Assembly (NCBI RefSeq): GCF_036010505.1
Contig: NZ_CP108569.1
Span: forward strand, 1,302,001-1,366,000
Length of the DNA: 64,000 nt
DNA from: Streptomyces sp. NBC_01197
GTDB lineage: Bacteria > Actinomycetota > Actinomycetes > Streptomycetales > Streptomycetaceae
Reading direction: 5' to 3'
Numbering within the stretch: the first letter of the stretch is position 1; each line of letters starts with the position of its first letter. The position numbers were made by a program, and so were the translations under genes. Below are positions 1,026 through 44,416 of this stretch, in pieces. The notes under the pieces were generated by a model that worked only from the letters and a program-made list of their open reading frames with translations, was not told the origin of the DNA and ran no database searches.

Positions 1026-1604
1026 TCAAGCCGCTGCGGGAGCGCTCCAGCCGGTGTCGGCGGCCCACCGTTCGGCCGCAGCCATCAATACCTCCGTAGC
1101 GGGGGCCTTGATCTGCCCATAGTCCGACAGGTCCGGCACGCTCAGTGCCAGCCGCTGCTTGAATGCGCCCCACGCCCGACGGGCGTCCTCGTCCGCACGC
1201 AGGTAGGCGCGAAACAGCAGGGCAAAGCGGGCATTAGGTCCGGCGTCCTCCCGCAAGTGGACGTTGCACGACCTTGCGCCGGCCGGTGGCGCGAAGACGA
1301 GTTTGTGACACCGCTGGCCGCCGGAGACTTCGACGCGGTTCCACGGCTCCGGGCGGCACCGGAAGCCGATCACCGCAAGCAGCGGTACATCCCTGGCCTC
1401 GTCGATCGACGTCATCCGCACCTGCACATCAATGCAGTCCTTGGCCGGCAAGCCCGGTACCGAAGTGGATCCCACGTGGTCGACCCCGAGCACGAGGTCA
1501 CCCAGCGCATCTCGCAGCATCCCTGCAAGCAGCTCGAACTCCATCGGCCACTGCGGGCGGTACTCCACCACGGCAACCTGACCGCGCTCATCGGGAAACG
1601 GCAT
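1026..1604 (-). CDS. GrpB family protein (UPF0157, nucleotidyltransferase fold)
   Basis: A 192-residue protein starting at ATG 1604. It carries the GrpB/UPF0157 signature: VEYRPQWP near residue 13, then LVLGVDHVGSTSVPGLPAKDCIDVQV (GSTSVPG and the D-x-D pair resemble the GS...DxD nucleotidyltransferase core), and a C-terminal half with VHLRE and the FRAYLRAD motif. Length is normal for the family. The biochemical role of the family is unsettled; a nucleotidyltransferase-like activity is inferred from fold only. It is divergent from the TetR gene at 1764 with about 160 bases between them, and stands alone otherwise. Confidence 0.85.
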   Translation of the reverse strand: MPFPDERGQVAVVEYRPQWPMEFELLAGMLRDALGDLVLGVDHVGSTSVPGLPAKDCIDVQVRMTSIDEARDVPLLAVIGFRCRPEPWNRVEVSGGQRCHKLVFAPPAGARSCNVHLREDAGPNARFALLFRAYLRADEDARRAWGAFKQRLALSVPDLSDYGQIKAPATEVLMAAAERWAADTGWSAPAAA

Positions 1605-1763
1605 GTCGCCAGACGCTACATGTCATTCGAGCGACTCCATAGACAGCGGGGCCACCTCCTGCAACCCGCCAACGGGTGTGCCCCAGCACTCGACACAAAC
1701 AAGATCACGATCTACGGCTGGAGTATTAGCCGCGTTGATCATTCGCGAAGTGAAAGGGCTGCA

Positions 1764-2348
1764 GTGAGCACTCCCATAGCCGAAACCGGGCGGCCCGTCA
1801 TGGCCGACCGTGCGCGGCAGATCATGGCCGCTGCCCGGGAGTTGCTCGACGCTGAAGGGCCGGAGGCGTTGTCGATGCGACGCATTGCCGAGCGCGTCGG
1901 CATCCGGGCGCCTTCCTTGTACAAGCACTTTCCCGACAAGGCCGCTGTCGAGGCCGGGCTTCAAGCACAGGGGATGGTTCGCCTGGCGCAGGACATGGAG
2001 GCTGCTGAGGCCGAGATCGGCGACGATCCGCCCCTGCTGGTGCTCGCGAGCGCCTATCGGCAGCATGCGCTCGCCGGTCCGCATCTCTACCGCCTTACCC
2101 ACACTCGGCCGCTCGCCCGCGCTGCGCTACCCGAAGGGCTCGAAGACCGCGCGGCGATGCCCCTGGCCCGCGCGGTGCATGGCGACATCGATATCGCGCG
2201 GTCGTTCTGGGGGTTCGCCCACGGCATGGTGACACTCGAACTCGACGGCCGATTCCCGCCCGGCGCGGACCCGGATGCCGCATGGCGCACCGGCTGCGAG
2301 GCGTTCGCCGACCTACTCCAGAACAAGAATGGCGGGGATGCCCTGTGA
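1764..2348 (+). CDS. TetR/AcrR family transcriptional regulator
   Basis: A regulator of about 194 residues. The N-terminal helix-turn-helix is clear: [17 protein letters not shown], then [24 protein letters not shown], the canonical TetR DNA-binding signature at roughly residues 17-62. The C-terminal part ([21 protein letters not shown]) resembles the WHG-type ligand domain. GTG at 1764 is chosen as start, with ATG 1800 as an alternative that would still keep the HTH intact. The broken lgt copy follows on the same strand after 233 bases, and GrpB is divergent. Its target is not evident; the adjacent divergent GrpB promoter is a reasonable guess. Confidence 0.88.
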
Positions 2349-2581
2349 CGGCCATCGCCAAGCGTTCCGCTCCTGGCCTCCCCTGCTCCTGCTATGGATC
2401 GCCGCACTCGGCACCACGCTCAGGCGCTGGCCCTGAATGCTCGCTCGACCGGGCGATGCGCGGACAACTGCCGCTCGGGATGCCCAGCGGTCACGGCTCC
2501 TGGACAAGGAGCTCCGGCAGGAGGCCGTCCGGTGCACGCCTGATGACCAATCCCCTTCACCAAGCCTGCTACGGGGTGACC

Positions 2582-3466
2582 ATGGATCTCGCCTACCTTC
2601 CCAGCCCATCAACCGGGGTACTGCACCTCGGCCCGGTGCCGTTGAGGGCGTACGCCTTCTGCATCATCCTCGGCGTGTTCGTGGCCGTCTGGCTCGGCAA
2701 CCGGCGCTAAGTCACACGGGGCGGGGACCGGGGCGTCATCGCCGACATCACCATCTGGGCCGTGCCGTTCGGCCTCGTGGGCGGACGGCTGTACCACGTG
2801 CTCACCAGCCCCGACGCGTACTTCGGCAACCACGGCGAGCCAATCCGGGCTCTGTACGTGTGGGAAGGCGGGCTCGGCATCTGGGGCGCCATCGCCCTGG
2901 GCGGCCTTGGCGCGTGGATCGGCTGCCGTCGCCGCTGCATCCCCCTTCCCGCCTTCGCGGACGCCATCGCCCCGGGCATCGCCGTGGCCCAGGCGATCGG
3001 CCGCTGGGGCAACTGGTTCAACCAGGAGCTCTACGGCCGCCCCACCACGCTCCCTTGGGGCCTGGAGATCGACCGCGCACACCGCCCATTCGGAATGCTC
3101 GACATCGCCACGTATCACCCCACCTTCCTCTACGAGTCGCTCTGGGACATCGGCGTCGCCGCACTGGTCCTCTGGGCGGCCCGGCGGTTCGCACTCGGCC
3201 ACGGCCGGGCCTTCGCCCTGTATGCCGCTGCCTACACGGCTGGCCGATTCTGGACGGAGTACCTGCGCATCGACGAGGCCCACACGTTCCTCGGCCTGCG
3301 CCTGAACGACTGGACCTCCGTCGTGGTCTTCCTCGGCGCGATCGCCTACCTCGTCGTATCGGCCCGCCGCCTCCCCGGCATCGAGGACGTGTCGCGGCCC
3401 CGGGGCGAGGGCGGAACGGAGAAGGGTGACAAGCCTCGTAACACCATGCCGACATCAAACCCTTAG
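2582..3466 (+). pseudogene. lgt: Prolipoprotein diacylglyceryl transferase broken by an in-frame stop
   Basis: Lgt transfers diacylglycerol from phosphatidylglycerol to the lipobox cysteine of prolipoproteins in the membrane. The reading frame from ATG 2582 begins with the typical Streptomyces Lgt N-terminus ([36 protein letters not shown]) and, in the same frame, continues after a TAA at 2708-2710 with TRGGDRGVIADITIWAVPFGLVGGRLYH, GRWGNWFNQELYG (the invariant phosphatidylglycerol-binding signature), HPTFLYESLWD and GRFWTEYLRID. So one codon, usually aromatic here, has become TAA with no shift in frame. The remainder of about 250 codons is undamaged. No good internal start restores the first transmembrane segment. 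Streptomyces often have two lgt copies, so loss of one is tolerable. A base-calling error is the main alternative. Confidence 0.85.
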
Positions 3467-3515
3467 CGCTCCGCCTCAAGTGGATCTCGCCCCCGTCGCC
3501 TCGCAAGGAGAACGC

Positions 3516-3935
3516 ATGACATCCCCAACGCGCCCCAAGGCCAACCGGAGTTCGGCATCGGGCCTGGTCCGCGGCGCCTGGGCCCTGCTCTCTGTGTTTC
3601 TGCTGGCCTGGGCTGTGCTCGAGATGGTCAACCACGGCGGCGGGACGATTCCACTGGGCATATTGGGCTTCATCGCTCCCGACCTGACGCTGTTCGTCGG
3701 GCCGTCGGGGCCTCGCGAACCCGGGCAGCTCCCACGCGGCAAGGTGCCCGCCTACAACCTCGTCCACCGGCCGATCGTCCCAATTCCGGGGCTCATCGTC
3801 GTCCCCTTCCTGCCGGGCGACGGACCAGGTGCCAACGTCGGGCTGTTCACTTTCGCGCTCGGCTGGCTGCTGCACATCGCCTCGGATCGGGCGCTCGGCT
3901 ACGGACTGCGCACTGCCGACGGCTGGCAGCGCTAA
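3516..3935 (+). CDS. DUF4260 family membrane protein
   Basis: A 139-residue small membrane protein with start ATG 3516, preceded by AAGGAG at 3505-3510. The sequence has a hydrophobic segment around residues 18-40 (GAWALLSVFLLAWAVLEMV), then IPLGILGFIAPDLTLFVG, PAYNLVHRP and, near the end, WLLHIASDRALGYGLRTADGWQ. The PAYNLxHRP and HIAxDRALGYGL pieces are the hallmarks of the DUF4260 family. Function is unknown. It lies 50 bases downstream of the lgt pseudogene on the same strand and may have been cotranscribed with it. The carboxy end is intact. Confidence 0.75.
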   Translation: MTSPTRPKANRSSASGLVRGAWALLSVFLLAWAVLEMVNHGGGTIPLGILGFIAPDLTLFVGPSGPREPGQLPRGKVPAYNLVHRPIVPIPGLIVVPFLPGDGPGANVGLFTFALGWLLHIASDRALGYGLRTADGWQR

Positions 3936-4075
3936 GCGCCGACCGGGCAGCTTCGCGGACCCGGACCTGGCACCGGCGAGATCATCACCCCCATCCACCG
4001 CGGGCACTGGAACTCGAAATGCAAGGCCCCTTACGCTTTGAGCATCCCCGGCGGTGATGCTTCCCAGGTATCGGT

Positions 4076-12652: not shown

Positions 12653-13813
12653 TCACTCCTGGTCCGGTGTGGACCGTCTGTCCTCGGGCTTCTTCGTACG
12701 CAGGCGGGCCGTGACGTCCTCGGGGGGCAGGAACTTCGACCACCGCTCGGGGAATTCGGACGGCATGTCCGACCCTTCGTCGTCGGCCTCCGGGGCCACG
12801 GCACCCGGATGGTCCGGGGTGTGCGCTCCGCCCTCGGGGCGGGCGGTCTGCTGGAGCCGGAGACGCTCGTTCGCCGCGCGTGCCGCCGCCGTGGCCACCG
12901 AGGGCCAGATCCGGTCGATAGCGGCGTTGACCGCGGCGCCCACCAGGACGGCGAAGGCCGAGACCCCGATCCACAGCAGCACCGCGACCGGCGCGGCCAG
13001 TGAGCCGTAGATCGTCGGCCCCTCGACCGTGCTCGTGAGGTAGATGCGCAGCAGCAGGCTCCCCAGGACCCACATGCACAGCGCCACCAGCGCCCCCGGC
13101 ATGTCCTCGATCCAGGGTGAGCGCACCGGAACGGACACGTGGTAGAGCGTGGTGAGGAAGGCGATCGACAGCAGGATGACGACCGGCCAGTACAGGACCG
13201 AGATGACCTGTTCGGCGCCGGGCACGAACTGCACGACCCGGTCCGGGCCCGCCACCGCGAGGGGCAGCACCACCGCCCCGATCACCAGGGCGACGACGTA
13301 CAGCACGATGGAGAGCAGCCGGGTCATGACGATGCCGCGACGGCCGTCGAGCCCGTACATCACGGTGATCGTGTCGATGAAGACGTTCACCGCCCGCGAG
13401 CCGGACCACAGGGCGAAGGCGAAACCGATGGAGACGACATCGGGGCGCTTGCCGTGTGTGACGTTCTCCAGGAGCGGCTCGGCGAAGTCGTGGACGCCCC
13501 GGTCGGAGAGGACCGTGCTCGCCGCGTGCAGGATGTTCTTCTCCAGGCTGGCGACGGTGTGGGTGTCGGTCCAGCCGTCGACGTAGCCGAGCAGCGCGAT
13601 CAGACTGAGCAGCAGCGGCGGCAGGGAGAGCAGCGTGAAGAACGCCGCCTCGGCCGCGAGCCCCAGGATCCGGTACTCCATGCACGAGTTGACGGTGTCC
13701 TTGAGGAGCAACCACGCCATTCTGCGTTTGGAGACATTGCGATAGAGGGCTCTGGCCCGATGGAGCAGACCCGGATGCCGCTCCCCTGTTTCATTTGCTG
13801 CCTGCACCTCCAT
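12653..13813 (-). CDS. YihY/BrkB family inner-membrane protein
   Basis: A polytopic membrane protein of about 386 residues. Near residue 50 it has the family start of the membrane domain, YRILGLAAEAAFFTLLSLPPLLLSLIALLGY, followed by ALWSGSRAVNVFIDTI, several hydrophobic segments (RLLSIVLYVVALVIGAVVLP, VLYWPVVILLSIAFLTTLYH, LLWIGVSAFAVLVGAAVN) and a charged cytoplasmic tail of about 75 residues ending in DRRSTPDQE. BrkB/YihY proteins are six-helix envelope proteins of uncertain function. Start ATG 13813 is assumed; GTG 13831 or a GTG start further in (VSKRRMAWLLL) are possible. Its start lies 11 bases from that of the divergent acyl-CoA dehydrogenase. Confidence 0.85.
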   Translation of the reverse strand: MEVQAANETGERHPGLLHRARALYRNVSKRRMAWLLLKDTVNSCMEYRILGLAAEAAFFTLLSLPPLLLSLIALLGYVDGWTDTHTVASLEKNILHAASTVLSDRGVHDFAEPLLENVTHGKRPDVVSIGFAFALWSGSRAVNVFIDTITVMYGLDGRRGIVMTRLLSIVLYVVALVIGAVVLPLAVAGPDRVVQFVPGAEQVISVLYWPVVILLSIAFLTTLYHVSVPVRSPWIEDMPGALVALCMWVLGSLLLRIYLTSTVEGPTIYGSLAAPVAVLLWIGVSAFAVLVGAAVNAAIDRIWPSVATAAARAANERLRLQQTARPEGGAHTPDHPGAVAPEADDEGSDMPSEFPERWSKFLPPEDVTARLRTKKPEDRRSTPDQE

Positions 13814-13824
13814 ACCGTAGCCCC

Positions 13825-15462
13825 ATGGCACCGAGCACTCACACAGTGACCAACCAGCCTCCGCCGCTGGTGGGACATGACGTCTTCACGACCGACCGGG
13901 TCCTGGCCGAGGCCGTGGACCGGCACACCGCGCCGGGACTCGCCGACGGCGTACGGGAGGAGCTGGCCGTTCTGGGCCGCAGCGCCGGATCCACGCAGGC
14001 GCGCGAGTGGGGATTCCAGGCGAACGAGAACCCGCCGCGGCTGCGGACCCACGACCGCTACGGGCACCGGATCGACGAGGTCGAGTTCCATCCGGCCTGG
14101 CACCGGCTGCTCGGCAAAGCCGTGTCGGCGGGGCTGACGGACGCCTGGGGCCGGCCGGCCGGGCATGTGCGGCGTGCGGCCGGTTTCCTGGTGTGGTCGC
14201 AGGTCGAGGCGGGACACGGCTGCCCGGTGTCGATGACCCATGCGGCGGTGCCCGCGCTGCGGGCCGATCCCGCCCTCGCCGTCGAGTGGGAGCCGCGGCT
14301 CACCTCGCACGTGTACGAACGGGACCTGGCGGCCCCGGGCCGCAAGCCGGGGGCGCTGTTCGGGATGGCGATGACGGAGAAGCAGGGCGGCAGCGACGTC
14401 CGCGCCAACACGACCGCCGCGGTGCCGGTCGCGGGGGACGGCGGCGCGTATCTGCTCACCGGGCACAAGTGGTTCTGCTCGGCCCCGATGTCCGACGGCT
14501 TCCTGGTGCTGGCGCAGGCACCGGACGGTCCGACCTGCTTCCTGGTGCCCCGGGTGCTGGCGGACGGAAAGCGCAACGTGTTCGCGATCCAGCGGCTCAA
14601 GGACAAGCTCGGCAACCGGTCCAACGCGTCGGCGGAGGTCGAGTTCGACGGGACCTGGGCGCGCCGGGTGGGTGATGAGGGCCGGGGGGTGCGCACCATC
14701 ATCGAGATGGTGGCGGCCACCCGGCTGGACTGCGCGCTCGGCTCCGCCGCGCTGATGCGGCAGGCGGTGGCGCAGGCGGTGCACCACGCCACGTACCGCA
14801 GGGCGTTCGGCGGGGAGCTGATCGACAAGCCGCTGATGCGCAACGTCCTGGCCGATCTGGCGCTGGAGTCGGAGGCGGCGACGACGCTGGCGATGCGGCT
14901 GGCCGCCGCGTACGACAGTGACACGGAGGAGGAGCGTGCGCTCCTCCGGCTCGCGGTGCCGGCCGCCAAGTACTGGGTGACCAAGCGCTGTACGCCGGTG
15001 GTGGCCGAGGCTCTCGAATGCCTGGGCGGCAACGGCTACGTGGAGGAGTCGGGGCTGCCCCGGCTGCTGCGCGAGTCGCCGCTCAACTCCATCTGGGAGG
15101 GCTCGGGGAGCGTACAGGCGCTTGACGTGCTGCGGGCGCTCCAGCGCGAGCCGCAGGCGCTCAACGCGTTCCTCCAGGAGGTGGGCAGGGCGCGCGGCGC
15201 CGACCACCGGCTGGACCGGGCGATCAGGGATCTGCTCACCGAACTCGCCGACCTGGACGGTATCGAGGCCCGTGCGCGCCGGGTCGCCGAGCGCATCGCG
15301 CTGGTGCTCCAGGGTTCGCTGCTGGTGCGCTGGGCGCCGCCGGAGGTCGCCGACGCGTTCTGCGCCTCGCGGCTGGGCGGTGACTGGGGTACGGCGTTCG
15401 GCACGCTGCCGCACTCACTGGATCTGGCGTCGGTCGTCGACCGGGCACGGACCGGCGTGTAG
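13825..15462 (+). CDS. aidB: AidB-like acyl-CoA dehydrogenase
   Basis: A flavoprotein of 545 residues from ATG 13825. The N-terminus THTVTNQPPPLVGHDVF and NENPPRLRTHDRYG, the core FGMAMTEKQGGSDVRANTT, LTGHKWFCSAPMSD, IQRLKDKLGNRSNASAEVEF and the C-terminal GGNGYVEESGLPRLLRESPLNSIWEGSG are all diagnostic of AidB, the adaptive-response isovaleryl-CoA dehydrogenase homologue that binds FAD and DNA and protects against alkylating damage in E. coli. Length fits the family. No ada or alkylation-repair gene is adjacent. The start is supported by alignment with AidB even though no clear ribosome site is visible. The physiological substrate is not known. Confidence 0.9.
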   Translation: MAPSTHTVTNQPPPLVGHDVFTTDRVLAEAVDRHTAPGLADGVREELAVLGRSAGSTQAREWGFQANENPPRLRTHDRYGHRIDEVEFHPAWHRLLGKAVSAGLTDAWGRPAGHVRRAAGFLVWSQVEAGHGCPVSMTHAAVPALRADPALAVEWEPRLTSHVYERDLAAPGRKPGALFGMAMTEKQGGSDVRANTTAAVPVAGDGGAYLLTGHKWFCSAPMSDGFLVLAQAPDGPTCFLVPRVLADGKRNVFAIQRLKDKLGNRSNASAEVEFDGTWARRVGDEGRGVRTIIEMVAATRLDCALGSAALMRQAVAQAVHHATYRRAFGGELIDKPLMRNVLADLALESEAATTLAMRLAAAYDSDTEEERALLRLAVPAAKYWVTKRCTPVVAEALECLGGNGYVEESGLPRLLRESPLNSIWEGSGSVQALDVLRALQREPQALNAFLQEVGRARGADHRLDRAIRDLLTELADLDGIEARARRVAERIALVLQGSLLVRWAPPEVADAFCASRLGGDWGTAFGTLPHSLDLASVVDRARTGV

Positions 15463-15603
15463 GCGAAACCGGCGAACAGCGGCCGGGAGCAAGGGGCACC
15501 AGCGGACAGCACGGGGGCCAGCCGGGGTCGATGCTGCGCCGACACGGCACCACCCCGGCTGGGCATCCTCCACCTTCGTACAACCGGCCGCGCTTACGCC
15601 AGG

Positions 15604-15621
15604 GTTGCAGACAGTTGCAGA
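15604..15621. repeat. Direct repeat in the regulator's leader region
   Basis: GTTGCAGAC and GTTGCAGAG lie side by side at 15604-15621 in the 285-base gap between the AidB-like gene and the GAF regulator, about 125 bases upstream of the regulator start. A head-to-tail octamer GTTGCAGA of this type could be an operator or activator site for autoregulation. The rest of the gap shows nothing I can name. Confidence 0.35.
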
Positions 15622-15747
15622 GGTTCTGCGGAGTCCGGTGCGCCGGGCCCCCGGGGGATGCACGATGGGGCACCGCATCAACTGGGCCGGCCGGCCCATC
15701 GGTTCGACGTCGAGTCCGGCGTCGTGGATCACATTTCGGGAGTACGC

Positions 15748-17061
15748 ATGAGGACCGGAGCCTCCAACGCGGCCGGCCCGCCGGCCCGGCACACCCGCGA
15801 GAGCGCCCGAACGCTGCACGGCGTACGTGAGGCGACGCTCTCCGGGGACCGTCCGCAGGTCGCGCCGCGCCCCGTCATCGGCGCGTCGTGGCAGCGGATG
15901 CTCCGGATCGGTCTCGACCCGGAGCGGGACACCAGCAGTGTGCTGCTGGGTAAGGAGGAGCTGGAGCACCGGCGCAGATCCACCGTGCTCGGTGAGCTGC
16001 TGCCGACGCTCAGCCGCGGACTCGCCTCGGTCGCCGACGCGTCGATGCAGGTCATGGTGGTCACCGACGCTGATGGCCGGGTGCTGTGGCGGGAGGGCAA
16101 CCGAGCCGTCCTGCGCCGGGCCAACGGCATCTGGCTGCAGGAGGGCGCCGCCTGGAGCGAGGGCTCCACCGGCACCAACGCGGTCGGCACCGTCCTGGCG
16201 ACCGGCCAGACCCTCCAGGTGCACTCCGCCGAGCACTTCGTCCGTACGCTGCGGGACTGGACCTGCGCCGCCGCGCCCGTCCAGGATCCGCGCGACGGAC
16301 GGCTGCTCGGGGTCATCGACGTCAGCGGCCCCGACTCCACCTTCCATCCGGCGATGCTCGCGCTGGTGGACTCGGTGGCCCGGCTGGCGGCGGCGGAGCT
16401 GCGGGACCGGCATCTCGACTCCGTCGAACGGCTGCGGTCGGTGGCCGCGCCGATCCTGAGCAGGGTGGGCGGCCGGGCTCTGGTGGTGGACGCGCACGGC
16501 TGGCCAGCCGCGGTGACCGGGATGCCGCCGGCCGGCCGGCTGCCGCTGGCCAAGTCCTTCGGTCCGGGCCGGGTCTGGCTGCCCTCGCTCGGGATGTGCA
16601 CGGTGGAGCCACTGCCCGGGGGCTGGCTGATCCGGCCGGACCAGGAGGGGCCCGGGGTGCGGCAGCCGGCCGACGGGGCGGCGGTGAGCCGTGTCGTTCT
16701 CGACCTGAGCGGGCCCAGGCGCTGGTCGGTGACCGTATCGGGGGCGTCCGGCAGCTGGACCCAGGATCTGACGCCCCGCCACGCGGAGCTGCTGTACGTA
16801 CTGAGCCTGCACCGCGAGGGCCGCACGGCGGCCGAGTTGGCGGACGACCTGTTCGGTGACGCGACCCGGACGGTGACGGTGCGCGCGGAGATGTCGCGGG
16901 TGCGCCGGGGTCTCGCCGAGGTGCTGGCGCACCGTCCGTACCGGTTCGCCGAAGGGGTCGAGGTGGAGGTGACGGGCCCGGACGACCCGGCGGAGCTGCT
17001 CCCGCACTCGACGGCGCCCGCCGTGCGCCGGTCGGTCGCGCAACCCGGGATTGTCTCCTGA
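15748..17061 (+). CDS. GAF-domain transcriptional regulator (AcoR-like N-terminal half, C-terminal winged helix)
   Basis: A 437-residue protein with start ATG 15748 preceded by CGGGAG. Residues about 25-230 look like the N-terminal sensing half of AcoR-type regulators: PRPVIGASWQRMLRIGLDPE, then a GAF domain with VMVVTDADGRVLWREGN, WSEGSTGTNAVGTVLATGQ and LGVIDVSGPDSTFHPAMLALV. There is no sigma-54 AAA+ domain. The C-terminus (TPRHAELLYVLSLHREGRTAAELADDLFG, then TVRAEMSRVRRGLAEVL) resembles a winged-helix DNA-binding domain. Homologues in Streptomyces often sit beside aldehyde dehydrogenase genes; none is present here, so the target is open. Confidence 0.85.
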   Translation: MRTGASNAAGPPARHTRESARTLHGVREATLSGDRPQVAPRPVIGASWQRMLRIGLDPERDTSSVLLGKEELEHRRRSTVLGELLPTLSRGLASVADASMQVMVVTDADGRVLWREGNRAVLRRANGIWLQEGAAWSEGSTGTNAVGTVLATGQTLQVHSAEHFVRTLRDWTCAAAPVQDPRDGRLLGVIDVSGPDSTFHPAMLALVDSVARLAAAELRDRHLDSVERLRSVAAPILSRVGGRALVVDAHGWPAAVTGMPPAGRLPLAKSFGPGRVWLPSLGMCTVEPLPGGWLIRPDQEGPGVRQPADGAAVSRVVLDLSGPRRWSVTVSGASGSWTQDLTPRHAELLYVLSLHREGRTAAELADDLFGDATRTVTVRAEMSRVRRGLAEVLAHRPYRFAEGVEVEVTGPDDPAELLPHSTAPAVRRSVAQPGIVS

Positions 17062-17077
17062 CCAGGCATGCATTAGC

Positions 17078-17096
17078 TTAGGTGAGCCTAACCTAA
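17078..17096. promoter_or_regulatory. DmdR/IdeR-type iron box
   Basis: TTAGGTGAGCCTAACCTAA at 17078-17096 is the exact 19-bp core of the actinobacterial DtxR-family iron box, the reverse complement of TTAGGTTAGGCTCACCTAA. Such boxes are bound by Fe-DmdR1 and repress siderophore and iron-uptake genes in Streptomyces. The gene that should follow on the plus strand appears degraded (see 17113-17305), so the box may be an orphan or may now act on the GNAT gene at 17339. Confidence 0.85.
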
Positions 17097-17112
17097 TGGA
17101 AACGGGGCGAGG

Positions 17113-17305
17113 GTGAGCGCCGAGCCGCACCGCGACCGCTGGGGCATTCCGCATCTGCGGGCGGGCAGCGCGCGGGACCCGACCCTGGAGCTGGGTGATC
17201 GACCGGCTGGAGGGCTTCGGCTTCGAACCCGGCCCGGAGATGGACAAACCGGAGAAGCGGGCCCGGCTGGCCTTTCTGCGCCGTGGGTCCGCGGGGCTGC
17301 CGTGA
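17113..17305 (+). pseudogene. Gene debris after the iron box (penicillin-acylase-like start fused to an unknown tail)
   Basis: GTG at 17113 begins SAEPHRDRWGIPHLRAGSARD; RD-WGIPHLRA is the characteristic N-terminus of penicillin acylase family proteins, which are normally about 700-800 residues. After about 22 codons the match ends, and a different frame reads SWVIDRLEGFGFEPGPEMDK and EKRARLAFLRR to a TGA at 17303-17305, which looks like the C-terminus of another, unrecognised or of the same protein. A large internal deletion joining two gene ends is the simplest explanation. Only short stretches support this, so confidence is modest. Confidence 0.45.
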
Positions 17306-17338
17306 ACCACCGCACCGGCGCGTGATTCGCTGGCCCTC

Positions 17339-37933: not shown

Positions 37934-37938
37934 CACAA
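37934..37938. repeat. Target-site duplication, left copy
   Basis: CACAA immediately outside the left inverted repeat. The identical CACAA lies immediately outside the right inverted repeat at 44412-44416. A 5-bp duplication is the normal footprint of Tn3-family transposition. Confidence 0.85.
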
Positions 37939-37975
37939 GGGGCCCCAGTAGTTCTCGCCGAAAAAACAACGCTAA
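37939..37975 (+). repeat. Left terminal inverted repeat of the Tn3 element
   Basis: Starts GGGGCCCCAGTAGTTCTCGC and ends with a six-A tract and CAACGCTAA. Compared with the right end it has T to C at position 5 and one additional C after TTCTCGC. Tn3-family ends normally begin GGGG and span 35-48 bp, which agrees. Confidence 0.9.
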
Positions 37976-38003
37976 GCGGCTGCGGTCCAGCTCAGAGCGC
38001 GGA

Positions 38004-38879
38004 TCAGAATGTTGTGGCCTCGTCGTGCTCGCGCAGCATGCGCATGACGGTCGCGGGAGCTGGGTGCTGACCACGCTTCTTGCCGGTGCGGATCACCAGC
38101 CGGGAAGCGATCTCGCGCAGTGACAGGCGTTCCTGGTCGCGCAGCCGGAGGGCGGTGGCGAGCATGTCTTCGTCGGAAACCTTGACGCCGCCGATCATCT
38201 TGCCTTTCGTACGGGCGGTCTCCTGGCCTTCGAGGGTCTTGTCGCGGATGTAGTCGCGCTCGGACTCCGCCATGGCGGCGAAGAAGGCGAACAGGGCGGC
38301 GCCGTGCCCGGCCGGGTCGTGCTTCCCGGCCAGAGGGCCGGTGAGGAACTCCAGCTCGATCTCCGCGTCCCGCAGTTCCTCGGCGACCTTCAGCAGTTCC
38401 AGGGCGCCCCGGCCCAGGCGCTTCATCTCGTGCACCACGAGCGTGACCTTCGCGCCCAGCGAGCGGTACTCATGGGCCGCCGCCAGGGCCGCCTTCATCT
38501 CGGGGCGCTCGCGGACCCGGGTGCTGATCTGTTCCTTGAACAGCCGGTGCACGCCGGAGGCTTCGAGGGCGTCGACCTGGGACTGGATCTCCTGCGTCCG
38601 GGTCGAGACGCGGGCGTACGCGAGCCGGACCTCCATCGGCACGGCAGGCGCCGCGAGCTTCTGCACCGGCAGGGACTGCCAGGCTGAGCCGGGATGGCGT
38701 ACGGCCGGGGTGGCGACGTGCAGCTCGGAGCGGAGTGCGGGGACGAGCTGGAAGCGCGCGGTGTGGTACTTGAGCGCGACCTTGCCGCAGGTGGTGCGGC
38801 AGGGCGAGCCCGCCGGGGCCTGGCAGGTGGACATCGGGCAGGCGTGCGACTCGACGAGCCGGTATGGATCGTTGATCAC
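38004..38879 (-). CDS. tnpR: Serine resolvase with an N-terminal zinc-finger-like extension
   Basis: A 291-residue protein from GTG 38879. Residues about 80-290 are a Tn3-type serine recombinase: RLAYARVSTRTQEIQSQVDAL (catalytic Ser), KVTLVVHEMKRLGRGALELL, FFAAMAESERDYIRDKT and a C-terminal helix-turn-helix RLSLREIASRLVIRTGKKRG. The first 80 residues are extra: C14, C19, C27, C31 and H39 with APAGSPCRTTCG, close to the phage/mobile-element zinc-finger pattern (CPxC-x-PGxPC...H-x-R). It would resolve cointegrates and may repress the element. The domain fusion is unusual compared with the ~185-residue classic TnpR. Confidence 0.88.
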   Translation of the reverse strand: MINDPYRLVESHACPMSTCQAPAGSPCRTTCGKVALKYHTARFQLVPALRSELHVATPAVRHPGSAWQSLPVQKLAAPAVPMEVRLAYARVSTRTQEIQSQVDALEASGVHRLFKEQISTRVRERPEMKAALAAAHEYRSLGAKVTLVVHEMKRLGRGALELLKVAEELRDAEIELEFLTGPLAGKHDPAGHGAALFAFFAAMAESERDYIRDKTLEGQETARTKGKMIGGVKVSDEDMLATALRLRDQERLSLREIASRLVIRTGKKRGQHPAPATVMRMLREHDEATTF

Positions 38880-38888
38880 GATCGGATC

Positions 38889-38999
38889 GTTTCAGAAGTG
38901 CGTTTCACCGGTCAAGAGGAAGGAAACGGCCTGTGAAACACATCGACCTGCGGCGATGCTGCTGGCGCCCGGTGTTGAAACGGGGACCGCCTATGAAAC
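38889..38999. repeat. Probable res site of the Tn3 element
   Basis: The gap between the resolvase start and the response regulator contains GTTTCA at 38889-38894 and 38902-38907 and the inverse TGAAAC at 38934-38939, 38976-38981 and 38994-38999. Five copies of one hexamer, arranged as inverted pairs over 110 bp directly upstream of the resolvase gene, match the arrangement of res subsites. The promoters of the resolvase probably overlap it. Binding is inferred. Confidence 0.7.
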
Positions 39000-39026
39000 A
39001 CCGACTTGCGGTGGGGCCGAGGCGCG

Positions 39027-39674
39027 TCAGGGGTTGTTCAGGAAGGTGAGAACGGCGAGGACGCGGCGGTTGTTGTTGTCGTCATCGGTGATGCCGAGTT
39101 TGCCGAACAGCGAAGTGGTGTACTTGCTGATGGCGCTTTCGCTGAGGAAGAGCCGTTGGCCGATGGCCTGGTTGGACAGTCCTTCGGCCATGAGGCCGAG
39201 CACGGAGTGTTCGCGTTCGGTGAGCCGTTCGAGCCGTCGATTCGAGGATCCGCTGGACAGTAGTTTGGCGATGACGGCCGGGTCCATGGCGGTCCCGCCG
39301 GCGGCGACGCGTTCCAGGGCGTCGATGAACTGATCGGCGTCGAAGACGCTCTCTTTGAGGAAGTAGCCGATGCCACCGGCGCCGTCGGCCAGGAGTTCGC
39401 GGGCGTACAACTGCTCGACGTACTGGGAAAGGATGAGGACCGGCAGTCCGGGCCGTTCGCTGCGGGCGGCAAGAGCCGCCCGCAGGCCCTCGTCCGACTG
39501 GGTCGGTGGCATGCGGACGTCGACGACGGCAACGTCCGGCTGCCACGTCAACAGCGCGTGCAGCGTCTCGGGTCCGGTGGCTGCGGTCGCCACCACCTGG
39601 TGTCCATATGCCGCGATGAGGCGAACCATCCCGTCACGCAGGAGGTAGAGGTCTTCGGCTACAACGATTCGCAC
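39027..39674 (-). CDS. NarL/LuxR family response regulator (Tn3 cargo)
   Basis: A 215-residue response regulator. The receiver domain has the acidic pocket (VVAEDLYLLRDGMV), phospho-acceptor Asp in VAVVDVRMPPTQSDEGL, and the Lys in YFLKESVFDADQF. The C-terminal LuxR HTH is LTEREHSVLGLMAEGLSNQAIGQRLFLSESAISKYTTSLFGKL. The start overlaps the end of the kinase gene by 16 bases, so both are one operon with kinase first. Its targets could include the neighbouring membrane-protein gene on the other strand. Confidence 0.92.
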   Translation of the reverse strand: MRIVVAEDLYLLRDGMVRLIAAYGHQVVATAATGPETLHALLTWQPDVAVVDVRMPPTQSDEGLRAALAARSERPGLPVLILSQYVEQLYARELLADGAGGIGYFLKESVFDADQFIDALERVAAGGTAMDPAVIAKLLSSGSSNRRLERLTEREHSVLGLMAEGLSNQAIGQRLFLSESAISKYTTSLFGKLGITDDDNNNRRVLAVLTFLNNP

Positions 39675-40918
39675 GGCACCATCATCCTCACCCGGGTCGG
39701 GCCGCCTTCCGGGCTGGTGATCTCCAGGGCGCCGTCGAAGACCGCGAGGCGGCGGCGCAGCCCCGCGAGTCCGCCGTCGGCTCGCAGGCCGGCTCCGCCG
39801 CGGCCGTTGTCTTCGACATCGATGACGATGCCGGTGTCGTCCTGGGTGAAGGAGATCCGGGCCTGGGTCGCACGGGCGTGCTTGACCGCGTTGGTCAGCA
39901 GTTCGGCGATGGCGAAGTACAGGGCGGACTCGATCGGCGGGTCCACGCTGAGTTGAAGGTGGGCGCTGACAGCCGCTTCGAGCGGGCTGTCCAGGGCAAG
40001 AGCGCGAACGGCATCGATGAGCCCGCGGTCGTTCAGCACGGGCGGATTGATTCCCTGGACCAGTTCGCGGAGCTCGGTCAGTGACGCGGTGGCACCAGCC
40101 CGCGCTTCCCGCATCAGCGTCCTGGCCTGTTCAGGGTCGGTTTCCATCAGCTTCTCCGCAGTCGCCAAAGAGAGCCCGAGCCCGACCAGGCGGGCCTGCG
40201 CCCCGTCGTGCAGGTCCCGCTCGATCCGGCGGATCTCGGCGGCCTGGGCAACCGTCGCATCCGCGCGCTGGGCGGTCAGCTCGTCCACCCGGTCCGCCAG
40301 CGCCATCGCGGGTGACGGGCGCAGGAAGCGGACGGCCACTGGCTCGACACACCGCCAGGCATACGGGGCGCTAGCGACGGCCACGACCAGGCCGAGCGCC
40401 CCGACGACGCGCGCGGCGGGCCCCGGCTGGCCGAGCCCGAGGACCGCCACGGCCACCCCGGCCGGCGGGAGGGACGCGACCAGGCCCGCGGTGAGCGGCG
40501 CGATCGCCGTGAACCGCAGGTCGCGCCAGTTGGCGGGGTCGCTCCACCGGACCCGCCACTTCTGATCCAATAGAGCATCGCGGCGGGTGCGCTCGTAGCT
40601 GAAGCCGTTCCACCAGTACCCGGTGGACATCGGCGTCACCGGCCCGGCCTCCCGGTATCCGGCGGGGATGGCGGTGGCCGTCCACCTCGCGACGAGGAAG
40701 CGGACCATCCGGCAGACCGAGCGGGACAGGGCGAGCGTGCACCCGCACGCCAGCACGACCGGCACAACCCAAGACCACGGGTTTCCCGCTCCCCACCAGA
40801 TCCCCAGCGCCACGGCGGCGGCCCACACGGCCGGGACCAGCATGCTGATGACCGCCACGACGCACGCCCGTACGAACCCCACGCCGGCGCGCGCCAGCCA
40901 CGAACCCCGCTGTCTCAT
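39659..40918 (-). CDS. Sensor histidine kinase (HisKA_3 type, Tn3 cargo)
   Basis: A 419-residue membrane kinase. There are several N-terminal hydrophobic segments (RACVVAVISMLVPAVWAAAVALGIWW, VVPVVLACGCTLALSRSV; later LTAGLVASLPPAGVAVAVLG, ARVVGALGLVVAVASA), then the HisKA_3 H-box ERDLHDGAQARLVGLGLSL and a GHKL ATPase with LTNAVKHARATQA (N-box) and DNGRGGAGLRADGGLAGLRRRL (G-boxes). No extracellular sensor domain is evident. Signal unknown. It forms a pair with the response regulator and is divergent from the small membrane protein. Confidence 0.92.
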   Translation of the reverse strand: MRQRGSWLARAGVGFVRACVVAVISMLVPAVWAAAVALGIWWGAGNPWSWVVPVVLACGCTLALSRSVCRMVRFLVARWTATAIPAGYREAGPVTPMSTGYWWNGFSYERTRRDALLDQKWRVRWSDPANWRDLRFTAIAPLTAGLVASLPPAGVAVAVLGLGQPGPAARVVGALGLVVAVASAPYAWRCVEPVAVRFLRPSPAMALADRVDELTAQRADATVAQAAEIRRIERDLHDGAQARLVGLGLSLATAEKLMETDPEQARTLMREARAGATASLTELRELVQGINPPVLNDRGLIDAVRALALDSPLEAAVSAHLQLSVDPPIESALYFAIAELLTNAVKHARATQARISFTQDDTGIVIDVEDNGRGGAGLRADGGLAGLRRRLAVFDGALEITSPEGGPTRVRMMVPCESL

Positions 40919-41069
40919 GATTCTTCCTTCGCATTCCGTTCGGTGCTCCCACTGTGCACCGCGCGGAGCCCGCTACTGTCCTTGTCAGCCGGGGAGTGGG
41001 GCTAGCCGCACCCACCCGTGGGTCTAGACGGATACCGCGTCGGCCTGGCGCTTCTTAGCGTCGGTGAGC

Positions 41070-41507
41070 ATGGAAACCAACAAGCACACGGCTGAGGCGG
41101 CAGTCCTCAACAGCCCCCGCACCCAAGAAGCCTTTGACACGGCGAAGAACAGCGTCAAGGTCTATGGCGCACTCAGCGCCGTCGTCCTCCTGGCGGTCAT
41201 CGTGGTGTCGAGCAGCGGTCATATGGTGAACACGTTCATGTGGGTCCGGGCAGTCCTGCTGCCTGTAGTCGCCGTGCTGATCTACCGGATGATCGTCTCC
41301 GCTTCCCGGGGATCTCGACGGGCCTTCGAGCGCGTGAGCGCCCTCGCCGTCATCATGCCGATCGCGATCATCGGCGTCGACCTGATCCCGGGTGTCTGCC
41401 CGCCGTGGTACGCCGTGATGCAGGCCGTCTGCATGCTGCCCATCATCCGAGTCGCGTTCATCACCCGCGGCTCCGCACTGCGCGCCGCCTTCCCCAAGTC
41501 ACGCTGA
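41070..41507 (+). CDS. Small four-helix membrane protein (Tn3 cargo)
   Basis: A 145-residue protein from ATG 41070 (GTG 41064 possible). It has four hydrophobic segments: YGALSAVVLLAVIVVSSS, VRAVLLPVVAVLIYRMIV, VSALAVIMPIAIIGVDLI and WYAVMQAVCMLPIIRVAFI, with basic loops (SASRGSRRAFER). I do not recognise a named family. Small membrane proteins like this are often found divergent from a two-component system in actinobacteria and are likely controlled by it. No ribosome site is obvious, so it might be translated from a short or leaderless transcript. Confidence 0.75.
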   Translation: METNKHTAEAAVLNSPRTQEAFDTAKNSVKVYGALSAVVLLAVIVVSSSGHMVNTFMWVRAVLLPVVAVLIYRMIVSASRGSRRAFERVSALAVIMPIAIIGVDLIPGVCPPWYAVMQAVCMLPIIRVAFITRGSALRAAFPKSR

Positions 41508-41598
41508 CTCGTCAGCTCCTGCGTGCTTCCTGACTGCACCAACGGCATCGTCTGATGCATCCGGGGCGCGCAGCGGACAACAGGCCCGTGTCCGGCTG

Positions 41599-44297
41599 CT
41601 ACAGCCCGGCTCGGGGCTCGTCCATGCCGGCGGTCCGCAGCGGCCGGTGTCCCTGGTCGTCCGAGCTGGGCGAGTTCGCGTTCGTAGTCGACGGTGATCG
41701 AGCCGTAGTAGTTGACCACCGAACTGCGCGCCGGGGAGATGTGCGCCAACACCTCGGCGTCCACCCCGCGCCCGGCGGTACGCAGTTCGCCGACGGCCAG
41801 GCCCATGTACTCCGTGTGCCAGCAGACCACTGCGTTCGTCACGACGGTCAGGCACCATGCCTGTTCGTTTTGCTGCTCGGGCTGGCGGCGGGTGACCTTG
41901 CCTTCGCGGGCGTAGTGGAGCTGACGGCGCAGGGCGTGGAGGGACTCGCCCTCGTTCAGCTGCCGGGCGATCTTGCGCCGGTAGCCCTCGTCCGACAGGT
42001 ACTTCGCCGCGTAGATCGTGCGCCGGATCGCGCCGTACTCCTTCAGCGCGGCGGCCAGTGCGTTCTGCCGGGAGGACGCGGAGAGCTTTCCGACGATCAG
42101 GGAGGCGGTGGCATGCCCGTACTTCAGTGACCCGGCCAGACGGAGCAGGTCGTCCCAGTGGCCGGCGACCAGGTCCAGGTTGGCCTTCTTCGTCAGCAGC
42201 GGTCCCGCAGTCGGGAACCGCTCCTCGTAGTCGCTCTTGGCGCCCATCCGATACAGGGTGATCTTGCCCAGGTCCCGGATGCGGGGCGAGAGCTGCTTGC
42301 CCACCAGGTCGAACAGGCCGAAGTTGACCAGGGTGACACCATGCGTGTCCGTGGCGTGCTCGGTGATCGGCAGATCGGTGGCGTTGCCCAGGATCTCGTC
42401 CAGCACATAGTGGGCCTCGCGATGGGTGGCCACGATGACCTTCGTGCCGAACGTCGAGTGCTGGTCGGAGACGTGGGTGTAGGTGGAGATGCCCTCGGAC
42501 ACGAAGTACTTGTTCAGGTGCCGGGCGGTGATCGACTTGCCCCTCGTCGGGAACCGCTGCCCGTCGGATGACGACAGGGTGCCGGAGCCGAACATGGCCG
42601 TCACCGGCAGCTGGTGGTGGTAGTTGACCAGGCAGATGTTCGCCTCGCGCAGCGTCTCCTCGCGGATGTACCACTCCGCCGTCCACGCGAGCACGTCGTA
42701 GGGGATGCCGCAGGCCGCGGCCATGCCGTGCAATCCGAGGTTCGTGGAGAGCCCGATCAGGCAGGCGATCAGGTTCCTTTTGAGCTGCGGGGAGCGGGCC
42801 TGCTTGCCGCCGGCGTGGACGAAGCAGTCCAGGAAACCGGTGTGCCGGTCCATCTCCACTAGCAAGGAGGCGATCGGCACGTTCGGCAGCATCCGCTCCA
42901 GCTCGGCGTGCAGATCCTCGGCCTCGGACGGGATGTCCTCCGCGATGAGCGGCGAGATGACCAGCTCCCCGGCGTCGTTCAGCCGGACCGGCCCGTCGCC
43001 GCGCTTGAGGACCTCCTCCAGGTCGGTGAGGGCCTCGTCCAGTTCGTCCATCACCAGCGGCAGAGCCTCGGAGGCATCGGGGCTCTTGGCGACCAGACGG
43101 CAGAACTCCGTGCGGTGCGTCTCCCACTGGGTGGGCTTGAACAGGTAGGCGGCCGGGTTGTCGTAGCGGCGCGCGCCTGGCACGAACACGTCCCCCGACC
43201 GCAGGCCGTCGCGCAGTGCGAGCAGGGTGCACAGTTCCCAGTAGTGCCGGTACGCGGTCGCATCGCCCTTGGCCGCGGCCTCGTCGAGGTAGCCCTGCCA
43301 CCGGGTCGGCACGAACAGCGTCGACGCCTTGTCGGGGACGTTGCGGGCGCCGGTCGCGTTCAGCTCCCGCAGGATCTCCAGGCCTCGATCAGCGGCTTCG
43401 CCTCGGTGCCGCCTTTGAACCGCACCGCCTCCAGCACCTTCGGTGCGAACTGGCGGATGTAGGTGTGGGAGCCTTCCAGGAGCGCCAGGTGCCCGTGGTC
43501 CTTGGGCAGCCGCACGGTGGCCCCGGCGTGCGCGGCCCGCAGCCGGGACATGCCGATCTTCCCGCGCAGCAGCGTCCCCACCGCCTCGTCCGGGATACCG
43601 GCATCGGCCAGTACCGGCAATATCTCGTCCAGCAGGGCGAGCCGGTCCTCGGAGAGCTTGGCCCTCTCGGCAAGCACCTCGCGCAGCTTGATCCGGGCGC
43701 GGGACTCCGACCCGGACAGAGTCTGGTCGAAGAGTTGCACCACGGCGTCGAGGACGTCGACGGAGGACTGCGCGAGCAGTGTCAGCAGGATCGGATGGCG
43801 CCGGTTGGGCTCGCGCCGCACCAGGGCGTGCGCGGTCAGCCGGCGCCCAATCTGGGCCAGGTAGCGGCGCCGCTCGGCGGGCAGCGACGACATGTCCAGG
43901 GTGTCCGCGCCAAGGCCGCGCAGGAACCTCAGCTTCTCGACCTCGCCGCCCACGCTCGTCGGCGACGCCTGCACCGGCCCGGTCACCAGCCAGTGCAGCC
44001 GCGAGGACTTGAGCTCCGGATCGACGACCAGCAGCCCGCGGCGAGCCCGAGCTGGCGGGCCAGGCGGCCGACCGCCGCGGGCGGAGCGGCGGGCACATCG
44101 TCGGGGACGAAGCCCAGCCAGGGCAGGGCGGACAGCTGCACGGCGGCACCGAGCACGTTCTGGGCCCGGCGGAACTTCCGCAGGAACGCCTCGTCGGCCG
44201 GAGTGAGGGTGAAGTACCGGATCAGCTCGTCCTTGCCGATCGCCGGAAAGGACCGTAAGCCCTCCAACTCCTCATCCGAGAACACCCTGGTGGCCAT
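41599..44297 (-). pseudogene. tnpA: Tn3-family transposase, degenerate
   Basis: The TnpA frame starts at ATG 44297 (MATRVFSDEELEGLRSFPAI) and ends at the TAG at 41599-41601. Four lesions are visible. Near 44040 the DUF4158 N-terminus (LARQLGL) is joined to DPELKSSRLHWLVTGPVQAS with a shift of frame and without the roughly 150 residues normally between. Near 43386 one base is missing (AKPLIEA then frame change to EILRELNATGA). Near 41640 one base is added, so the natural end (DDQGHRPLRTAGMDEPR) is off frame. The central DDE part (MAAACGIPYDVLAWTAEW, FPTRGKSITARHLNKYF, THGVTLVNFGLFDLVGK, AWCLTVVTNAVVCWHTEYMG) is intact. Inactive as read. Confidence 0.85.
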
Positions 44298-44375
44298 CGG
44301 CCCCTCCCACCCCACTCGATCGACGCAGACGACCACCACCGCTACCCGGCCAGACGATGGGCGCTGCAGCACGGA

Positions 44376-44411
44376 TTAGCGTTGTTTTTTCGCGAGAACT
44401 ACTGGGACCCC
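44376..44411 (-). repeat. Right terminal inverted repeat of the Tn3 element
   Basis: Read on the minus strand it starts GGGGTCCCAGTAGTTCTCGC and ends with a six-A tract and CAACGCTAA, a 36-bp near-perfect partner of the left end. It begins the canonical GGGGTC of Tn3-family ends and so is the better preserved end. Confidence 0.9.
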
Positions 44412-44416
44412 CACAA
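44412..44416. repeat. Target-site duplication, right copy
   Basis: CACAA immediately outside the right inverted repeat, identical to 37934-37938. Confidence 0.85.

Follow-up and report, generated by a model that had tools for sequence, protein, structure and literature searches.

The window analyzed here, 64,000 nucleotides of Streptomyces sp. NBC_01197 (contig NZ_CP108569.1, positions 1,302,001 to 1,366,000), contains a 6,473-bp element of the Tn3 transposon family at 37939-44411 (sequence read directly). It holds a resolvase gene (tnpR), a broken transposase gene (tnpA), the genes of a sensor histidine kinase and its response regulator, and that of a small membrane protein, here termed MP (Table 1). 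Our preferred reading, to which we assign a probability of about 0.6, is that this Tn3-family copy carries a captured, local two-component switch, the likely output of which is MP, a predicted four-helix protein. The element is of a known kind, while its unusual regulatory cargo appears to have been exchanged between transposons. In the proposed switch, an envelope signal would turn on MP via the kinase, which would phosphorylate its LuxR-type regulator; the regulator would occupy the palindrome that separates the divergently oriented kinase and MP genes and switch on the MP gene and also the kinase operon. The effector would be MP, with a possible role in membrane protection given that, in relatives, it or the kinase is paired with MMPL-family transporter genes. 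Judged from its sequence, the kinase appears to cross the membrane several times and to have little in the way of an outside domain.

The regulatory module and its palindrome

An initial annotation made from the sequence alone had named a histidine kinase, a response regulator and a membrane protein as the passengers in place of resistance genes, and for the kinase and regulator the domain scans agreed. Both regulatory proteins carry the domains of a LuxR-type two-component system with a HisKA_3 kinase, and no resistance enzyme was matched in Pfam or NCBIfam among the 7 element proteins scanned. Nor was a toxin or antitoxin matched in either database among these 7 proteins, MP itself being without a family. 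The regulator's best curated relatives were MadR, MctR and NarL-type proteins, all far under their cut-offs. A PADLOC scan of 4 proteins returned only two marginal matches, over the regulator's helix-turn-helix, and assignment as an anti-phage defence system was rejected because the model match was unconvincing.

The ~145 bp between the divergent kinase and MP frames are conserved and hold the only such palindrome within the element. Its distance from the kinase start is 78 bp, and it precedes the MP ATG by ~58 bp. The form GTGGG-N6-CNCAC was found between the kinase and MP genes at 28 of 33 loci, compared to 0.095 per shuffled set (at most 1 in 200 sets), and the form GTRGG-N6-CNCAC, which allows GTAGG, was found at all 33. 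Support that we read as independent was obtained from three genomes where the MP gene is unlinked and the cognate pair lies on another contig (regulator 80-91% and kinase 71-79% identity). The palindrome precedes two of these three MP genes and, with GTAGG allowed, all three kinases. It is also found before the MP-MMPL pair of the distant cluster L154, twice before the kinase of that cluster, and, among other kinase-regulator loci, in L148. It was absent from the L002, L004, L005, L060, L137, L139, L149 and L150 stretches, some of which may not reach the kinase promoter. The host genome has one further copy of the strict palindrome, outside the element, and seven of its backwards control. The circuit therefore looks local, and a wider host regulon was rejected on the same count.

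For MP, AlphaFold2 (26 sequences) predicted four long helices and at most three short ones (pLDDT [predicted local distance difference test] 86, pTM [predicted template modeling score] 0.76), in line with the four-helix membrane protein first proposed. Homologues at E <=0.001 numbered 384 among 787 candidates, and the names among the best 120 of the 384 were hypothetical or integral membrane protein, with one source giving cytochrome bd oxidase subunit. The name "cytochrome bd-type quinol oxidase subunit 2" was rejected for these homologues, its sole support being one member's YbgE match at E 0.015. MMPL transporter genes lie next to a relative of the kinase in L002 and next to a relative of MP in L154; a literature search for MMPL with two-component systems gave no direct match. 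The L002 stretch (1276-3989) is a distant kinase-regulator paralogue on the host chromosome (67% at the DNA level); an MMPL-family transporter gene diverges from it, and the palindrome is absent. A distant MP relative in the host genome (34%; L142, 793-1923) lies downstream of a TetR-family regulator gene, and distant relatives elsewhere adjoin TetR (L135) or kinase (L137) genes.

These neighborhoods bear on a different role for MP, as an accessory of the kinase that provides signal input or negative feedback, the real outputs being host genes. Small membrane proteins beside kinases often modulate them, and the distant relatives in L137, L142 and L135 adjoin a kinase or TetR regulators. This reading is at odds, however, with the MP genes that have the palindrome and are unlinked to the kinase (two of three such loci), and with the single strict site outside the element, below its control. 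It was judged unlikely.

Several observations weigh against MP as the regulated effector. The shuffle significance of the palindrome is overstated because the 33 loci are related. The window palindrome ends in CGCAC, the sole one of the 33 not to end in CCCAC, and the changed base may weaken it. The unlinked MP gene of L082 lacks the palindrome, and at L048 the kinase, regulator and palindrome are present with no MP found nearby. Structure lends the effector role no support, since Foldseek gave no solved structure below E 0.66 for MP and Pfam gave nothing over cut-off for 26 MP homologues. Ratios of nonsynonymous to synonymous substitution (dN/dS) were 0.48-1.26 for MP, on small counts, and 0.12-0.53 for the kinase, regulator and resolvase; the fast change of MP could mean weak constraint.

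The high MP ratios and the changed base would also fit a module that is inert cargo on a dying transposon, as would the broken tnpA, the shortened right repeat and the single copy in the host genome. Such decay is hard to reconcile with the intact kinase, regulator and resolvase frames and their lower ratios, or with the recurrence of the module in many genomes, and we regard inert cargo as quite improbable.

Probable capture of the module and its apparent exchange between transposons

The gene set was found in other actinobacterial genomes, both with and without a transposon. The same arrangement is present on two S. atratus plasmids, and a remnant was found in Streptomyces sp. NRRL WC-3742. 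When 295 genomes of the same genus, the host's among them, were searched at the DNA level, the module was matched in 17 besides the host (76-87% identity); 14 of these matches span all three genes and three cover the kinase and regulator only. One or two candidates were scored per genome, so the count of 17 is a lower bound. These 17 loci and 22 named ones made up the 39 examined (four contigs occurring twice), and the window-type repeat was absent from these 39 (fixed-length pattern, <=8 substitutions). Transposon genes adjoining the module were tnpR in L061 and L062, remnants in L064 and short transposase-like scraps in L070, with a resolvase-like match 7 kb from the module in L069. MP was without kinase and regulator in three of the 22 named loci (L074, L080, L082). 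By protein comparison (>=45% identity over >=120 residues) MP was present in 19 of the 295 genomes, or 26 at E 1e-10; only the window's genome was among both these 19 and the 13 with the terminal repeat.

The named hosts besides Streptomyces are Nonomuraea, Micromonospora, Actinomadura, Amycolatopsis, Yinghuangia and one record labeled Streptosporangium; several named loci are draft contigs, and chromosomal location is not claimed for each. The transposon-free copies contradict a transposon-specific invention of the module. A shared genomic position was rejected as well, for neighborhoods mostly differ among the 35 loci compared: several flanking open reading frames (ORFs) were common only to L050/L054, L043/L077, L055/L056/L057 and the transposon pair L061/L062, and two further pairs had one flanking ORF in common. 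One decayed module was seen (L155, 4685-5494): it has lost the kinase together with the N-terminal portion of the regulator, and what remains of the regulator lies directly against the MP remnant.

The borders of the module within the element were deduced from two kinds of relative. In the transposon copies L058, L060 and L039, which carry different passengers, similarity to the window extends to 38991-39002 and resumes from 41561-41586, the L058 backbone matching to 39002 and from 41586. Conversely, the transposon-free module of S. aureocirculatus (L072) matches 38999-41570. Neither tnpR nor tnpA was found in L072 by tblastn; 115 bp lying 3 kb away are similar to tnpR DNA (66%). The left border falls directly at the end of the repeats taken as the resolution site (res), and in other copies the interval between the two borders holds a flavin mononucleotide (FMN)-oxidoreductase-type gene among others in L058 and a serine peptidase gene in L039. 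From these matches, capture of the module from an actinobacterial genome is likely. In L060 (3892-11594) the same backbone is flanked by ATCGC on both sides and its tnpA has an internal gap; the passengers are a PF13796 sensor kinase and a LuxR-type regulator, a pair unlike that of the window, and a DUF4097 protein.

Two results weigh against the preferred reading. The right border is less sharp when the transposon-free L066 is considered, which aligns to 41643, weakly (78%, permissive scoring). A tree of 40 kinase-plus-regulator rows, six of them labeled transposon-borne (window, L038, L040, L061, L062, L064), needs two changes to place these six, and one change sufficed in 0 of 200 bootstrap trees. 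Two are needed because L072 and L078, in which tblastn found no transposon genes, fall inside the transposon-borne clade. Either one capture followed by transposon loss from L072 and L078 or two captures would fit; the single capture is favored because the junction just after res is common to both transposon types.

The second transposon type was found in Micromonospora rubida (L061) and Streptomyces sp. A 4/2 (L062), which are 98.7% identical over 6.1 kb and carry the same cassette inside another Tn3-family transposon. The cassette runs from tnpR residue 287 to the MP stop at 92% identity to the window, its borders lying near the tnpR end and the MP end. The ends have different inverted repeats (GGGGACCAACRGAACAGYCAG...) and the transposase is another one, its gene interrupted in L062 and fragmentary in L061. 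L159, a plasmid-borne copy of this backbone that lacks the cassette, encodes a resolvase of its own (50% identity to that of the window) and a transposase 92% identical to that of L062 and 27% to the window-type transposase of L039. It follows that one cassette, tnpR included, sits in two backbones. The rate of synonymous substitution (dS) between the window and S. atratus copies was 0.237 for tnpR and 0.024-0.050 for the regulator, kinase, MP and transposase C terminus, an unevenness that speaks for recombination around tnpR. Recombination within or next to tnpR/res is most likely how the cassette came to change transposons. GGCC adjoins the ends in L061, L062 and L159, reflecting either a repeat longer than shown or a GGCC-rich target. 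In L062 a ~4.5-kb insert (12810-17327) with a phage-integrase-type recombinase gene lies in the transposase gene; the Micromonospora copy is without it.

Exchange at res has been proposed for toxin-antitoxin modules, which are described as abutting res in Tn3 transposons (PMC7157771). The present module is similar in lying beside tnpR and in being common to transposons with unrelated transposases (PMC7157771). It differs in that it is not such a pair and is mostly found without transposons. The position next to the probable res, shared with those pairs (PMC7157771), and the company of tnpR in two transposon kinds could mean that the module serves the transposon as those pairs do, by controlling tnpR or tnpA or by stabilizing the element. 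Most module loci examined have no transposon genes, however, and the element's only palindrome lies between the kinase and MP, so that this role seems very improbable. The preferred reading, a captured switch, can be extended, though tentatively and at well below even odds: MP effectors of a new four-helix family, together with resolvase, res, kinase and regulator, would form a unit exchanged at res between Tn3-family transposons with unrelated transposases, spreading across actinobacterial families and giving hosts a ready-wired, palindrome-controlled membrane protection without a classical resistance gene. The module is a candidate mobile stress-response trait, since it sits in many actinobacterial genomes without the window's transposon and in a second kind of transposon.

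Ends, insertion site and transposase gene

The limits first assigned from the inverted repeats and the CACAA duplication were reproduced by direct reading. The Tn3 family is marked by terminal inverted repeats of ~38 bp starting with GGGG and by a 5-bp target duplication; in agreement, the element has inverted repeats of ~37 bp and a perfect 5-bp duplication. Its two ends differ by one substitution and one missing base, the right repeat being one base shorter. A search with the repeat's 20-base core (<=3 mismatches) gave exactly two matches in the window, one at each end of the element, compared to 0.01 copies on average in shuffled windows. A 37-base repeat pattern (<=3 mismatches), which the window's short right end escapes, was found in 13 of the 295 same-genus genomes, and its backwards control in 0.

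Table 1. Features of the Tn3-family element in window coordinates.
Feature	Position	Strand	Basis or remark
Target-site duplication, left copy, CACAA	37934..37938		Sequence
Left terminal inverted repeat, GGGGCCCCAGTAGTTCTCGCCGAAAAAACAACGCTAA, 37 bp	37939..37975	+	Sequence, pattern searches
tnpR, serine resolvase, N-terminal zinc-finger-like domain (PF00239, PF24623), frame intact	38004..38879	-	Pfam
Probable res, repeated GTTTCA/TGAAAC half-sites upstream of tnpR	38880..39000		Repeats; putative role
Left junction of backbone and captured piece, shared CACC	38999..39002		L058 matches to 39002, L072 from 38999
Response regulator, Response_reg + GerE/LuxR	39027..39674	-	Pfam, NCBIfam
Sensor histidine kinase, HisKA_3 + HATPase_c, overlapping regulator gene	39659..40918	-	Pfam, NCBIfam
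Operator-like palindrome, GTGGGGCTAGCCGCAC	40996..41011		Conservation; putative binding
TAGCGT, possible -10 box of MP gene	41056..41061	+	Conserved block; putative promoter
MP, predicted small membrane protein, 147 aa, no Pfam family	41064..41507	+	Likely start ATG 41070
Right junction zone	41561..41586		L072 matches to 41570; transposon relatives start at 41561-41599
tnpA pseudogene, Tn3 transposase pieces	41651..44297	-	Pfam, NCBIfam, alignment
Right terminal inverted repeat, reverse complement GGGGTCCCAGTAGTTCTCGCGAAAAAACAACGCTAA	44376..44411 (read 44411-44376)	-	Sequence, pattern search
Target-site duplication, right copy, CACAA	44412..44416		Sequence

That the module genes might belong to the site originally, with the repeats only framing them, was addressed by comparison of the insertion site. 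The left-flank gene was searched against 61 genomes (own included), of which 51 matched, and the loci taken were the own one and those of the 29 best relatives. No element DNA was found around this gene in any of the 29 relatives. Right-flank similarity was recognized in 21 of their 29 fetched stretches, which extend only ~1.5 kb past the match and in one case stop at the contig end. The two flanks are ~250 bp apart in the closest relative (G023, 92% identity), and some relatives have other DNA between them; the exact pre-insertion sequence was not recovered. The empty site contradicts native genes, as does the perfect 5-bp duplication; nothing was found in favor of this explanation, and its chance is negligible.

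For the recombination genes, family membership was deduced from domain matches. The resolvase matches PF00239, and res is proposed from repeats shared by copies, including transposons without the module (L058, L060). The long piece of tnpA matches the Tn3-type DDE transposase family PF01526 (E 7.8e-130) and NF033527 (573.9 bits against a cut-off of 500). When aligned with the intact 1006-aa transposase of L058, residues 1-86 (44297-44040), 187-413 (44055-43381) and 413-990 (43384-41651) fall in three frames, with ~100 residues missing. The first break (44040-44055) coincides with a 322-bp gap relative to the S. atratus copy (L038), and the second is a frame change near 43381-43384; an error in base calling could account for the second break but is an unlikely cause of the first. 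A different frame break is present in the S. atratus copy, the ends of which show no matching 5-bp duplication. Because its tnpA frames are broken, the window copy is unlikely to supply its own transposase, and it is likely immobile by its own means. The earlier description of the element as mobile and self-contained was thus not sustained, given the broken gene, the single copy in the host genome (7.7 Mb, two contigs) and the lack of such ends at most module loci examined. On the second contig of the host (80 kb) lie a stretch with resolvase similarity (67%) and 55 bp with similarity to transposase (80%) (L003, L008). Phage records gave weak transposase matches only, in 3 records.

Relation to known systems

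The genes that transposons carry are commonly interpreted in terms of resistance or catabolism. The cargo here would instead be a sensing circuit, with a probable operator and a single nearby target conserved across several actinobacterial families, and the uncharacterized MP family gains a testable regulator and DNA site. It would be a case of transposons trading a signaling module, not a resistance gene. Among Tn3-family transposons, Tn1546 carries VanR-VanS, a two-component system that controls a glycopeptide-resistance operon. The present element is like Tn1546 in carrying a two-component system but unlike it in that a scan of 7 proteins recognized no resistance gene and no resistance operon under the system; its sole divergent target is the small membrane protein. 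Among the titles and abstract openings listed from open-access papers, no Streptomyces Tn3 element with a two-component passenger was found.

The Streptomyces transposon Tn4556 is described as a Tn3-family element of 6,625 bp with 38-bp inverted repeats containing a mismatch (PMC6403206). Like it, the present element is a class II transposon of similar size with transposase and resolvase genes; the passengers given there are a methyltransferase and an isoprenyl diphosphate transferase, whereas here they form a two-component module. The Tn4556 resolvase is reported there with PF00589 (PMC6403206), whereas the resolvase here matches PF00239 and is of the serine type.

The kinase and regulator have the same architecture as the MadRS and LiaRS-type envelope-stress systems (NF047785, NF047786, NF052531), NF047785 presumably being named after the enterococcal MadRS. 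MadR was the regulator's best NCBIfam match at 100.4 bits, under its cut-off of 300, so membership of MadRS was not assigned. The kinase matched MctS best (88.2 against a cut-off of 700), and its LiaS match reached 36.6 against 450.

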